Below, piece after piece: positions 59,332-64,000 of a stretch of DNA of 64,000 nt. The notes below the pieces were generated by a model that saw nothing but the letters and a program-made list of their open reading frames with translations, was not told the DNA's origin and did not search any database. Position 1 is the first letter of the stretch; every line of letters starts with the position of its first letter. This DNA is from an uncultured Lachnospiraceae bacterium (GTDB taxonomy: Bacteria; Bacillota; Clostridia; Lachnospirales; Lachnospiraceae): assembly GCA_902779395.1 (NCBI GenBank), contig CACZBK010000022.1:1-64000 (forward strand), written 5' to 3'. Both the position numbers and the translations under genes were made by a program.

Positions 59332-59360
59332 TTGTTTTTAACCCCTGTATATGCTAGAAT
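59332..59360 (+). promoter_or_regulatory. Promoter of the alarmone synthetase gene, near-leaderless
   Basis: TTGTTT (59332-59337), 17-bp spacer ending TGC, TAGAAT (59355-59360). The predicted start at 59367-59368 is one or two bases before the ATG at 59369. Divergent from and close to the GspF-like promoter. Confidence 0.6.
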
Positions 59361-59368
59361 ATCATAAT

Positions 59369-59980
59369 ATGGAAAATATATACGGGAATTACGAAAAAAC
59401 ACTGCATACCATAGCCATAGATCTGGTCGATAAGATAAACGGCTATGCCAATACATATATGGACAGCTGCGGAGATAAGCTTTTTGAGCATTTAAGCTGG
59501 CGCATCAAAAGCCCTGAGAGCATGGCAGACAAATGTGCCAAGGACGGGCTTCCTCTGAACATCCACAGTGCTCTTAAGGAAGTGCATGATGCCATAGGTC
59601 TCAGGATAGTGTGCCTCTTTCTGGATGACATCCATAAAAACATAGAACAACTTCGCACCCTTCCCGGTACAAGGGTAGTCAGGGAGAAGGATTTTATAAG
59701 CTCCGCCAAGCCCAATGGTTACAGGAGTTATCATATGATACTTGCGGTGGAAAACGAGATCCCTGATGTGGACGGCAATACCCCCGGTGAATATTTCGCC
59801 GAGATACAGCTTCGTACCATAGCCATGGATACCTGGGCCGCTCTTGAACACGAACTGAAATATAAAAAGGATATACATCACCCCGAGCTCATAAGCGAAG
59901 AACTCAAACGCTGCGCCGGCGAGCTCGCGAGCTGCGATGTATCCCTCCAGACCATAAGAGAACTGATACGGGGAAAATAG
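59369..59980 (+). CDS. Small alarmone synthetase (RelA/SpoT synthetase domain, RelQ-like)
   Basis: 203 residues that transfer pyrophosphate from ATP to GTP or GDP to give (p)ppGpp. Motifs are LSWRIKSPESMADKC (basic ATP-binding segment), DAIGLRIVCLFLDDIHK, SSAKPNGYRSYHMIL (G-loop) and FAEIQLRTIAMDTWAALEHELKYKK. There is no hydrolase or C-terminal regulatory domain. ATG 59369 is preferred to an in-frame ATG at 59351, which lies within the promoter. It is followed 4 nt later by an OmpR-type regulator. Confidence 0.93.
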   Translation: MENIYGNYEKTLHTIAIDLVDKINGYANTYMDSCGDKLFEHLSWRIKSPESMADKCAKDGLPLNIHSALKEVHDAIGLRIVCLFLDDIHKNIEQLRTLPGTRVVREKDFISSAKPNGYRSYHMILAVENEIPDVDGNTPGEYFAEIQLRTIAMDTWAALEHELKYKKDIHHPELISEELKRCAGELASCDVSLQTIRELIRGK

Positions 59981-59984
59981 TGTA

Positions 59985-60659
59985 ATGAAGATACTTTTAG
60001 CCGAAGACGAAACAGATCTTGCAGAAGTAATAAAGGCAATGCTTGAACATTCATCCTATACAGTGGATGCTGTTGAGAACGGAGCTCTTGCCGTAGAACA
60101 TGCCAGAAGCAATGCCTATGATCTTATCATACTTGATATAATGATGCCGGTTATGACCGGTCTTGAAGCCGTTAAGGAAATACGTGCCCATGGTATACTC
60201 ACACCCGTCCTTTTTCTGAGTGCCAAAGCAGAGGTAGATGACCGTATAAACGGCCTTGATGCCGGTGCCGATGATTATCTCACCAAGCCTTTTGCAATGG
60301 GTGAGCTTCTGGCCAGGGTAAGAGCCATGACCAGGCGCAGGGCAGATTACTCTCCAAGAGTGATCACCCTTCATGAAGTATCTCTTGATACGGAAAAAGC
60401 AGAGCTTTCCTGCAAAAACACCATCAGTCTTGCAGCAAAGGAGATAAGACTGATGGAACTTTTCATGAACAATCCCGATCTGGAGTTTACGACCGACGAC
60501 CTGCTGGAACGTTTCTGGCATGATGAAAAAGCCGATTCCGATGCGGTATGGATGTATATCTCATTCTTAAGAAACAAGCTGAAATCAGTGGGAGCCCCCC
60601 TTGCGATCATCGGCGAGGAAGGAGGCAGCTACTGCTTAAGGAAGGCCTCTCTTATCTGA
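59985..60659 (+). CDS. OmpR-family response regulator
   Basis: 224 residues. The receiver domain (1-115) has LLAEDETDLAE, phospho-acceptor Asp in LIILDIMMPVMTG (about 51) and DDYLTKPF. The winged-helix DNA-binding domain (about 125-222) has ISLAAKEIRLMELFMNNPDLEFTTDDLLERFW and VWMYISFLRNKLKSVGAPLAI. It is 4 nt downstream of the alarmone synthetase. Its likely partner kinase is encoded convergently, the stop codons overlapping by 8 bp. Confidence 0.94.
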   Translation: MKILLAEDETDLAEVIKAMLEHSSYTVDAVENGALAVEHARSNAYDLIILDIMMPVMTGLEAVKEIRAHGILTPVLFLSAKAEVDDRINGLDAGADDYLTKPFAMGELLARVRAMTRRRADYSPRVITLHEVSLDTEKAELSCKNTISLAAKEIRLMELFMNNPDLEFTTDDLLERFWHDEKADSDAVWMYISFLRNKLKSVGAPLAIIGEEGGSYCLRKASLI

Positions 60660-61875
60660 ATAGTATGCTGAAGCTGATCTTTTTATTCTTATAAGCCACC
60701 TGGATCCTGGCGCCTATTTTTCTCGCTATCTCCTGTGCGATAGACAGGCCTATACCGAATCCCGATTTCTTGCTGTTATGGGATTCATCCTCTCTGTAAA
60801 AACGATCGAAAAATCTTCTGTAATCAACTCCCTCACCCGCAGCATAATCATTAGTAACACTAAGGCGCGCATTTCTGCCCCCCGTAAGCTCGATCCTTAC
60901 ACAGCCGCCTTCATCGCAATACTTGGCTGCGTTATCCAGAAGTATCGAACACAGTTCCGTTACACTCCTTTTCTCTGCCTTTACGATCACAGCATCATCT
61001 ATACTCTTCTCAAACGTTTTGCCCTGAGTGGTCACAACCTCTTCAAAACTCTCCGCCTGCTCATTTGCAACGGCAGAGACATCCACATCACTCAGCACTA
61101 TCTCATCCTTCTCGTCGAGCTTTGATAAAGTGACCAGCTCCGATACCAGTGCACCAAGACGCTTTACCTGCCTCATCGTCGCCTCTGTCCATTTGCTCTT
61201 TCCGTTCTCCAGTTCTATCATCTCGGTATTTGCGGATATCACCGCAAGAGGAGTTTTCAACTCGTGTGACGCATTGGTGATAAAACGTTTCTGCCTCTCC
61301 TGATTTTCTATAAACGGCTGCACTATGCGGGTCGAAAGAGCCACCATCAGCGTACTGTATATCAACAGTATCACCAGTCCCACAATAATCAGGTAATACA
61401 TTGTCTGGTGGATTATCCAGTATCTCGAAGTCCAGTCCGCAAATACGATCAGATCCGCATCAGGCCTTCTTTCCATCTTATATATGTACCTGCTCCCGTC
61501 ATAAGAAAAACGGCCTACGGGAGCGCCTAATATCCTTACCTGTCTGCTTATCTTAAGCGCTTCTTCATCATCTATGGTGGCGACCGACTCCGTATTTATC
61601 ATTGCGGCCTCACCTTCTTCATCAAGTATCACGGAAAAATATCTTACCTCATACTGCTGTTCCTCGGTCACAGAGATAAAAGTCCCGCCGTCTATGTGTA
61701 CTGTCCTTGTGGGCATGTAGCCGTCATTCTGGATCAGTACATCCAGGATCATCTCCATCTGTGATGAAACGGAACTGCGCACAAGAAAATAAACCGGCCC
61801 CATCACCAGAGTCAGTACCAGCAATAATACAAATGTCGAGGCAAGTACAAATTGTACACGAAGACGTCCTAACAT
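60652..61875 (-). CDS. Sensor histidine kinase (HisKA/HATPase)
   Basis: 407 residues. Two transmembrane helices (about 8-30 and 170-195) enclose an extracellular sensor of about 135 residues. An H box (FITNASHELKTPLAVISANTEMIE, His about 225), a dimerisation helix and an ATPase domain with N box (CSILLDNAAKYCDEGG), RFYREDESHNSKKSGFGIGLSIAQEIARKIG follow. It is the likely partner of the convergently encoded OmpR-type regulator, although such pairs are usually in one operon. It lies 45 nt after the kinase-DegV fusion gene and probably shares its transcript. Confidence 0.92.
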   Translation of the reverse strand: MLGRLRVQFVLASTFVLLLVLTLVMGPVYFLVRSSVSSQMEMILDVLIQNDGYMPTRTVHIDGGTFISVTEEQQYEVRYFSVILDEEGEAAMINTESVATIDDEEALKISRQVRILGAPVGRFSYDGSRYIYKMERRPDADLIVFADWTSRYWIIHQTMYYLIIVGLVILLIYSTLMVALSTRIVQPFIENQERQKRFITNASHELKTPLAVISANTEMIELENGKSKWTEATMRQVKRLGALVSELVTLSKLDEKDEIVLSDVDVSAVANEQAESFEEVVTTQGKTFEKSIDDAVIVKAEKRSVTELCSILLDNAAKYCDEGGCVRIELTGGRNARLSVTNDYAAGEGVDYRRFFDRFYREDESHNSKKSGFGIGLSIAQEIARKIGARIQVAYKNKKISFSILFR

Positions 61876-61920: not shown

Positions 61921-64000
61921 TCATTTTCTGGAAAATATAAGGCCGAATGTTCCGGGCCCGCAGTTTATACCTACCGCAGGTGAGGCTTTCTGAAACCATA
62001 TCTTTTTAAAATCCACGTACCTGCGTACTTCTTCTTCGATATGCTTAAGCTCGCTTTCCTTCATTCCCACATAGGTAATGAACAGTACCGAATCATCAAT
62101 GCCTGCACGATTTTTTAAAGCCCATCTTATATAATCACTGCGGACGGTATCCCGGCGGCCAAAGAGTATATTTCCCGTTTTAAGTCTGCTGTCTTTCATC
62201 ATAAATACGGGATGCAGCATAAAGATCGTAAAGAACTTGTTCATATTTGCGGATAATCTGCCGCCTTTCATCAGATACTCCGTATCATCGACTATAAAGC
62301 CTGTCTGTATCTTCTTTTTCTTTTCATCCAGATGTGAAAGGAACTCTTCACTTACCGTCTGCTCGGATTCGGATAGATCCTTAGCATACAGAGCAAGCAA
62401 ACCCATACCACTGGACAGATGTCCGGAATCCACAACCGTAACATTATAAAACGAAAGTGCTGCTTCCTTTGCATTCGCATAACCGTCACTGGAGCGTTTG
62501 CCCATGGCTATATGCAGAATGTATTGAGCCTCTGAAAGACAGTGTGCGAAGAATTCTTCATATTCCGATACAGAGGGACATTCACTGTGTGCTTCACTGT
62601 TTCCGTAAGCCAGATAATTAAGCACGGAATCCCCTTCGGTCTCTATCCCATCCAGAAAGCTTCCGCCTGTCGTATGAACATGATAAGGCAGCACACGTAT
62701 ATGCAGACGTTTTACAAGCTCTGCGGGCAGATCACATACGCTGTCTGTTGTTACCATGAGAGGCATCTTATGCTTTGTTTCTTTAAGCACGCTGTTCTTA
62801 GCGAACTCCTCCTCCGTCATATTGTTAAGATGGACCTTATCTCTTGAGAGTACATGAAGAAGCGCAGCCTCGAGCAGAGTTCCGCTTATAGGCTTTACAA
62901 GATATCCGTCAAAGCCTTCCCTGCTGTAATATGCCTGATTGGCCGAGCCGGCATTGGCTGTCACAATGACCACCGGTGTATTCCGGCACAGACCGCCCGG
63001 CTGTTCCCTGACGGCATGCATGCATTCGATCCCATCCATTTCAGGCATAAGGTGATCCATCAGTATCGCATCGTAATGCTCCTTAAGCGTAAGTCTGAGC
63101 GCTTCGGCACCGCTTGATGCCGTATCCGTTTTACACTTCGTTGCACGAAGGAGTTTTTCCGCTACCATCAGGTTTGAGGTATTGTCATCTACGATAAGTA
63201 TCCTGGCTGAGGGCGCTTCAAAGCTCTGATGATAATGCTCGCGCGAGCTTAAGATATGCCATGTCTCCGGATTCAGATGCCCTATAGCCTTCTCATCCAC
63301 AACCTCCTGCTCTATCGTTACCATAAAGGTGGAACCCTTTGTGTAAATACTGTTTACGGATATCTCTCCGCCCATAAGATCAACAAGCTGTCTGACTATG
63401 GAAAGCCCCAGGCCTGTGCCTTCGATATAACGGTTTTTTTCTTCATCCACTCTTTTAAAGGCATCAAAAAGATGAGGTATGCTTTCCTTTCTGATACCCA
63501 TACCTGTATCACTGACGGTATACGTCACCGCCACTTTGTTAAGCTCGAGCTTTCTGCAGCTCAGCGAAAGACTTACACTCCCCTCTTTCGTATACTTCAC
63601 GGCATTGTTAAGAAGATTTATGAGTATCTGTTTTATCCTGACCTCATCGGCAAAAAGCTGTGACGGCATGGACGGATCAACATCTACATTAAACTCAAGT
63701 CCTTTTTCCTTCGCCCGTGACCATATCATATTGACCAGGTCCGAAAGCATATTGCCCACATCGTACGTAACACTGACTATATCCATCTTGCCTGATTCTA
63801 TCTTGGACATATCCAGGATATCATTGATAAGCGACAAGAGCATCCTTCCGGCCGACCGTATATTTCTTGCATCCTCAGCCACTTCATCGGAGATATCTTC
63901 CCTCAGGATCATCTCATCAAGTCCGATTATCGTATTAATGGGAGTACGTATCTCATGGCTCATGTTGGAGAAGAAACGGCTCTGGGATCTGTTAAGTTCT
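61921..64000 (-). CDS. Hybrid histidine kinase-receiver-DegV fusion, N-terminus cut by window edge
   Basis: The frame is open to the window end (693 codons seen). Visible order, numbering from Met at 63963: H box FFSNMSHEIRTPINTI (phospho-acceptor His3), ATPase domain (about 100-220; N box LINLLNNAVKYTKEG, G boxes SDTGMGI and EGTGLGLSIV), receiver (about 252-375; Asp303 in LMDHLMPEMDG, Lys357), then a complete DegV domain (about 400-680). DegV marks are VTTDSVCDLPAELV, ECPSVSEYEEFF, KRSSDGYANAKEAA, VVDSGHLSSGMGLL, DTEYLMKGGRLSA, HPVFMMKDSRLK and CGPGTFGLIF. DegV proteins bind fatty acids, so the kinase may sense or act on a lipid. The sensor part lies outside the window. Confidence 0.92.
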   Translation of the reverse strand, partial: ELNRSQSRFFSNMSHEIRTPINTIIGLDEMILREDISDEVAEDARNIRSAGRMLLSLINDILDMSKIESGKMDIVSVTYDVGNMLSDLVNMIWSRAKEKGLEFNVDVDPSMPSQLFADEVRIKQILINLLNNAVKYTKEGSVSLSLSCRKLELNKVAVTYTVSDTGMGIRKESIPHLFDAFKRVDEEKNRYIEGTGLGLSIVRQLVDLMGGEISVNSIYTKGSTFMVTIEQEVVDEKAIGHLNPETWHILSSREHYHQSFEAPSARILIVDDNTSNLMVAEKLLRATKCKTDTASSGAEALRLTLKEHYDAILMDHLMPEMDGIECMHAVREQPGGLCRNTPVVIVTANAGSANQAYYSREGFDGYLVKPISGTLLEAALLHVLSRDKVHLNNMTEEEFAKNSVLKETKHKMPLMVTTDSVCDLPAELVKRLHIRVLPYHVHTTGGSFLDGIETEGDSVLNYLAYGNSEAHSECPSVSEYEEFFAHCLSEAQYILHIAMGKRSSDGYANAKEAALSFYNVTVVDSGHLSSGMGLLALYAKDLSESEQTVSEEFLSHLDEKKKKIQTGFIVDDTEYLMKGGRLSANMNKFFTIFMLHPVFMMKDSRLKTGNILFGRRDTVRSDYIRWALKNRAGIDDSVLFITYVGMKESELKHIEEEVRRYVDFKKIWFQKASPAVGINCGPGTFGLIFSRK

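Follow-up and report, generated by a model that had tools for sequence, protein, structure and literature searches.

A family of gut bacteria, the Lachnospiraceae, has joined a retooled fatty-acid carrier of the DegV type to a membrane sensor kinase. This kinase is nearly always paired with a second one, an arrangement through which the cell may read a lipid-like signal. The gene described here crosses the end of a 64,000-nucleotide stretch of DNA (hereafter, the window) from an uncultured member of the family; the window occupies the beginning of contig C22 in a genome of 3.58 Mb and 56 contigs. We found that the gene is half of a two-kinase module in which the partner is near-obligately present, and that each pair has, as a rule, one HPt domain, located in either of the two proteins.

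Results

An intact hybrid kinase ends in a complete DegV domain

The last 692 residues of the protein reach the end of the window as a single open frame with the order HisKA-HATPase-REC-DegV (Table 1). The initial annotation had described this part as a kinase core, a receiver, and a complete DegV domain, and profile matches from Pfam and NCBIfam bear out all three. The partner kinase, the second copy with its HPt domain, and the exchanged DegV residues, all described below, were not visible to that annotation. Numbered within the 692-residue part, Pfam places HisKA at 6-70 (E 1.3e-17), HATPase_c at 118-231 (2.7e-27), Response_reg at 267-379 (5.5e-22), and DegV at 415-691 (5e-40), the last covering positions 3-279 of a profile of 280. 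The DegV part belongs to the DegV/EDD family, scoring 138 bits against PF02645 (cut-off 27) and 153 against the NCBIfam profile TIGR00762 (cut-off 99.7). Recovery of the gene beyond position 64000, as the annotation had recommended, gave an intact frame of 892 amino acids that runs to an ATG (contig positions 61921-64599; 3922-6600 of locus L009). Its ~190 N-terminal residues contain five to six hydrophobic segments by Kyte-Doolittle analysis. This membrane part gave no Pfam match and is weakly shared with two genes of the same genome, besides the copy on contig C8 described below.

Table 1. Features at the end of the window, with positions in the window
Feature	Position	Strand	Remarks
DegV-hybrid kinase, C-terminal 692 of 892 residues	61921..64000	-	frame continues to 64599, beyond the window
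HisKA with SHEIRTP H-box	63790..63984	-	Pfam PF00512
HATPase_c	63307..63648	-	Pfam PF02518
Receiver with DD, phospho-Asp, Thr, and Lys	62863..63201	-	Pfam PF00072
DegV, full length	61927..62757	-	Pfam PF02645; FakB2 positions 61/93/170/202/266 are S/S/R/F/N
Sensor kinase, HisKA-HATPase	60652..61875	-	45 bases downstream of the hybrid gene; probably a separate system
OmpR-type response regulator	59985..60659	+	convergent with the sensor kinase gene, 8-base overlap; probably the regulator of that kinase
Small protein with RelA/SpoT domain	59351..59980		

The fusion recurs in the genome, the genus, and the family

By its own account, the initial annotation would fail if the DegV part matched no family profile or if assembly had joined two genes. 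The profile is matched over its full length, and a join is ruled out by repeated occurrence: a paralogue on another contig has the same architecture, as do 34 genus frames and 41 of the 44 loci listed from a scan of named sequences. The paralogue, on contig C8 of the same genome, has 1142 amino acids with an HPt domain after DegV and is 51% identical across the 690 matched residues. The genus frames, which join a receiver to DegV and two of which are cut by contig ends, come from 21 of 35 genomes. In the family sample (250 genomes, 249 genera), at least 38 genomes carry a kinase-DegV fusion, a lower bound because they were read by eye from a list that covers the stronger matches; 33 were confirmed by the domains in the locus and five (G097, G119, G129, G141, and G155) by frame length alone.

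In a phylum sample of 398 genomes, 73 matched DegV with an E value of 1e-48 or better. At this threshold, which weaker fusions elsewhere could escape, DegV frames longer than 600 amino acids were found in the same family alone. The scan of named sequences returned at least 44 loci, and the fusion-bearing ones hold 42 such genes. Titles among the listed loci are mostly Lachnospiraceae, and many name ruminant hosts; a few or single loci carry the names Oscillospiraceae, Treponema, Bacteroides, Eubacterium, or Coprococcus, and for these misbinning is possible. One carrier of the fusion, Lachnospiraceae bacterium P6A3 (JNKP01000006.1; L150), comes from a record with no metagenome-bin label.

The fusion is paired with a second hybrid kinase

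The partner is a hybrid kinase encoded directly upstream, with hydrophobic N-terminal segments, HisKA-HATPase, a pseudo-receiver, and a true receiver. In alignment, the pseudo-receiver keeps the Lys-Pro of a receiver and is without the Asp motifs. Queried with the pseudo-receiver, 22 of the 35 genus genomes gave matches, namely all 21 fusion-bearing ones and G004, in which DegV is a separate gene; the remaining 13 have neither the partner domain nor a module DegV. Copy numbers are equal in all 35 genomes; in total, the 35 partner matches are balanced by 34 fusions and the one separate gene. Thirty-three of these matches lie on the same contig as the DegV part and within 3.1 kb of it, and the other two are on different contigs, in genomes whose fusion is truncated by a contig end.

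In the family sample of 250 genomes, 36 have both genes, three the DegV gene alone (G044, G196, and G207, all less than 90% complete), six the partner alone (strong in G167; at 1e-20 or weaker in G072, G099, G177, G221, and G274), and 205 neither. Fisher tests of co-occurrence gave 1.1e-33 for the family and 6.8e-10 for the genus, values that overstate independence because the genomes are related.

Gene neighborhoods were counted for 71 complete fusions, taken from loci longer than 4.1 kb, with frames clear of the locus ends and identical proteins counted once. In 65 of them, the next frame upstream is a kinase of the same strand. L160 is counted here, although its upstream frame is the front half of the fusion itself, broken off, and the true partner lies next to it. 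Among the six others, the upstream frames of L126 are called in pieces and a kinase follows, L153 sits at a contig edge with an HPt piece, and L127 and L128 have a different layout (see below). The upstream gene is on the opposite strand in L154 and L163, the two of 71 with no kinase beside the fusion upstream. At another locus (L157), one REC-HD-GYP gene and one partner kinase gene are flanked by two DegV-hybrid kinase genes.

Phosphotransfer residues are intact, with one HPt domain per pair

The His of HisKA, the HATPase motifs, and the receiver Asp, Thr, and Lys that define a hybrid histidine kinase are present. All 68 fusions in which HisKA was called (out of the 71 complete ones) have the H-box, as do 61 of 63 such partners, and all five receiver positions are kept in 69/69 aligned fusion receivers and 62/62 partner receivers. 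Of the 71 fusions, 16 did not match a simple N-box pattern and two did not match a G2 pattern.

As called, the HPt domain is in the partner only in 42 of the 65 pairs, in the fusion only in 20, in both in none, and in neither in three; 62 of 65 thus have one. The window gene is of the first kind, with HPt in its upstream partner and none of its own. As for the three pairs called without HPt, L058 has a separate HPt frame downstream, the true partner in L160 has an HPt domain, and in L065, where the pair itself lacks an HPt domain, the next kinase but one upstream has it. The HPt His is present in 42/42 partner and 20/20 fusion domains. HPt-bearing fusions fall mainly within one clade of a 96-row tree, and the distribution of HPt between the two proteins may therefore reflect few transfers.

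Many loci adjoin c-di-GMP genes

GGDEF or HD-GYP genes occur within five same-strand genes at 50 of the 71 fusion loci. The window gene belongs to a run that reads PBP-GGDEF, REC-GGDEF, REC-HD-GYP, partner, fusion. With the same annotation, such genes were found near 3 of 3 loci with a separate DegV gene as compared to 0 of 6 loci of stand-alone DegV genes, the latter a small control. No GGDEF or HD-GYP gene lies within five same-strand genes of the C8 paralogue. Thus, c-di-GMP output is not universal among these loci.

The fused DegV domain has exchanged FakB residues

We numbered DegV positions by FakB2, whose functional residues we take to be T61, S93, R170, R202, and H266, in agreement with the FakB2 chain sequence. 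Published work (PMC8892158) describes FakB1 Arg173 and Arg205 as completely conserved, with Arg205 key for FakA binding, and a carboxylate network that runs Ser171-His270-Thr62-carboxylate-Ser95. Residues were counted in 101 distinct fused DegV domains and in 43 stand-alone DegVs, a non-random set that combines the top-scoring matches of the fused domain in other genomes, stand-alone DegVs encountered within the genus, and three out of four from the genome of the window. At positions 61/93/170/202/266, 41 of the 43 stand-alone proteins read T/S-S-R-R-H, and the other two end before 266.

The FakA-docking Arg (FakB1 R205, FakB2 R202) is Arg in 43/43 stand-alone DegVs, whereas Arg or Lys occupies this position in 1/101 fusions; the window protein has Phe. 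The carboxylate His (FakB1 H270, FakB2 H266) is found in all 41 readable stand-alone DegVs as compared to one fusion (L089; G055:C115), and 90 of the 101 fusions, the window protein among them, have Asn instead. Lys200 is present in 43/43 stand-alone DegVs and 0/101 fusions. Lys-x-Arg-Gly has become hydrophobic-x-hydrophobic-Gly in most fusions, with the Gly kept in 99 of 101 (41 of 43 stand-alone DegVs). In 77 of the 101 fusions, at least one of columns 200-204 holds an Arg or Lys. The idea that the docking Arg has merely shifted was rejected, since the following Gly anchors the loop and none of columns 192-214 holds an invariant Arg, the highest count being 51/101 at 205.

The Ser/Thr of the carboxylate site are mostly retained. 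Position 61 is Ser or Thr in 91/101 fusions and position 93 in 71/101; the window protein has Ser at both, a conservative exchange for Thr at 61, and so retains the hydroxyl residues of the carboxylate network. The catalytic Arg (FakB1 R173, FakB2 R170) is present in the window protein and in 43 fusions altogether, and lost in 58. The lid that dips into the membrane in FakB1 (171-186) has a mean hydrophobicity of 0.23 in fusions as compared to 0.65 in stand-alone DegVs; over 175-184, the two are equal (1.04 and 1.09). We obtained dN/dS values of ~0.08-0.11 for the fused DegV in three close pairs, comparisons with the window protein itself being saturated at silent sites. These values show purifying selection, and the function of the fused domain is thus changed but maintained.

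The genome of the window has one FakA-type gene, recognized by a Dak2 match, and four other DegV genes. Two ordinary DegV genes of this genome, both with the FakB residues, stand in tandem with a one-base overlap (L012, 3256-4143 and 4143-5009).

Separate DegV genes and other layouts

In three genomes (G004, G077, and G097), DegV is a gene of its own that comes after the partner kinase. It sits just before REC-GGDEF in G004 and G077, and G097 has a fusion-length frame in addition. These separate forms read S/T-S-K/R-I/F-N at the five positions. A 40-row tree places the fusions (94/91) as the sister group of the separate forms (94/83), and the two groups jointly stand apart from 13 stand-alone DegVs with 100/100. 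A quick tree of 96 rows gave 99 for the fusions and 100 for fusions plus separate forms, with the separate forms not grouped. Rows were thinned by identity; the 96-row tree omits L041 (the same gene as L076), and the 40-row tree additionally omits L118, L123, and three stand-alone DegV rows from the genome of the window. The tree fits two histories: the DegV domain may have been recruited beside the kinase before it was fused, or the separate forms may have arisen by old splits.

In L127 (7790-10378) and L128 (7951-10563), loci of two genomes, DegV is attached to a partner-type kinase that adjoins a GGDEF gene. Their kinase parts score 238 and 264.5 bits to partners as compared to 90.5 and 95.6 to hybrids; no Pfam HisKA or receiver was matched in either protein, and long branches make their placement unsure. 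In L106 (1477-3849; G273), DegV is N-terminal to HisKA-HATPase-REC, with the partner domain just upstream. Two further frames have other arrangements: a 594-residue frame in L124 (8117-9901; G078) combines Dak2, the FakA middle domain, and DegV, which places kinase and carrier in one protein, and L195 (1495-2904) encodes a DegV with ~190 N-terminal residues that match no Pfam family.

Discussion

The residue changes make the fused DegV likely to be a repurposed sensing or docking domain. The reading that we prefer, and to which we give about an even chance, is that of a two-kinase phosphorelay whose DegV domain has become a regulatory domain sensing an acyl-chain ligand. The membrane anchor of the kinase would hold the cytosolic DegV domain at the inner leaflet, where the domain would no longer act as a substrate carrier for the fatty acid kinase but would bind a fatty acid or a derivative. 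Whether DegV is loaded or empty would then decide how kinase and phosphatase activity are balanced, or how phosphate moves among the two kinases, the HPt domain, and downstream receivers. The relay itself would run His-Asp-His-Asp across these components and, at many loci, tune c-di-GMP. The initial annotation had proposed that a bound lipid tunes signaling, and this part of it fits the intact relay residues, the purifying selection on DegV, and the mostly retained Ser/Thr. The nature of the ligand is less clear: with the His lost, position 93 other than Ser/Thr in 30 of 101 fusions, and Arg170 gone from more than half, it could be a non-acid, or there could be none. The on average less hydrophobic lid, the loci with no GGDEF or HD-GYP gene nearby, and the two fusions with no kinase beside them upstream likewise count against this reading.

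The last option leads to the best-surviving alternative, which we regard as rather unlikely. Here, DegV would be a ligand-free structural dock that joins the two kinases, or a kinase and the HPt domain or receiver, with the hydrophobic patch in place of Lys200 and Arg202 as the contact. The near-obligate pairing with the partner agrees with such a role, as do the patch itself, the loss of the carboxylate His, and the occurrence of DegV on a partner-type kinase, N-terminal to a kinase, or next to the partner in a gene of its own. However, a pure scaffold needs neither the Ser/Thr kept at 61 and 93 nor so specific an Asn in place of His. It is improbable that the domain binds a non-acyl small molecule or a phosphoryl group and signals through that ligand. 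The altered head-group site would be in keeping with this, as would the EDD fold, which is reported to be common to phosphotransferase domains; yet we identified no residue specific to phosphoryl transfer in the fused DegV, and the solved relatives include the fatty-acid-binding FakB1 and FakB2.

Delivery of fatty acid to FakA by the fused domain is unlikely because the docking Arg and the carboxylate His are each lost in 100 of the 101 fusions. The second proposal of the initial annotation, that phosphorylation by the kinase controls such delivery, therefore did not stand and is in our view very improbable: although the genome has a FakA-type gene for the domain to serve, the docking Arg is also gone from the separate-gene forms, the catalytic Arg is frequently missing, and the four other DegV genes could do the job. 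Least credible is a DegV part decaying as a passenger after a chance fusion, which would explain the loss of the residues that mark a FakB but is already contradicted by the low dN/dS, the new, nearly invariant residues, and the wide retention in one lineage.

Returning to the acyl-sensing reading, its broadest form is offered tentatively: a fatty-acid carrier, either in a gene next to a kinase or fused to it, may have become the lipid receptor for a phosphorelay of two kinases and one HPt domain, and this relay would link the membrane pool of free acyl chains to c-di-GMP turnover in gut Lachnospiraceae. If true, this would be a type of lipid-to-second-messenger system for which we found no description in the open-access literature that we searched. 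To our knowledge, little is known of intracellular lipid sensing by anaerobic gut bacteria or of the signals of most hybrid kinases. Here, the DegV fold points to a candidate class of ligand, the partner and the HPt domain define the relay, and a carrier genome not marked as a metagenome bin exists; thus, control of the phosphorelay by fatty acids is directly testable. The separate-gene forms, which branch next to the fusions, also document a possible route by which a metabolic carrier came into signaling.

In the portions of the open-access full texts covered by our search, no DegV-kinase fusion was described, and DegV appeared as a separate protein or gene. This agrees with the initial annotation, which knew of no characterized protein of this type. 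Among known systems, the FakB/DegV proteins of S. aureus (FakB1 and FakB2) share with the fused domain a full-length domain match, most of the Ser/Thr of the carboxylate site, and the Gly after the docking Arg. In contrast to them, the fused DegV sits in a membrane hybrid kinase, its docking Lys/Arg are mostly hydrophobic, its carboxylate His is mostly Asn, and its catalytic Arg is kept in a minority of fusions. Hybrid kinases of the BarA/TorS/ArcB type resemble the module in their intact HisKA, HATPase, receiver, and HPt residues, and the best NCBIfam kinase matches of the window protein are BarA and TorS. Nevertheless, the window protein falls far below the cut-offs of those families and has a DegV domain; the relay of the module is divided between two neighboring hybrid kinases that together have one HPt domain, and the partner has a pseudo-receiver. 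Bacillus degV, which we take to adjoin degSU, likewise stands beside a two-component system, but as a separate gene and next to a different class of kinase. Last, a study in S. aureus (PMC5539427) reports that free fatty acids repress the two-component system SaeRS, in line with the acyl-sensing reading. Fatty acids affect a two-component system there, as they would here; in S. aureus, FakA acts indirectly through the pool of free fatty acids, whereas here the FakB-like domain lies inside the sensor kinase.
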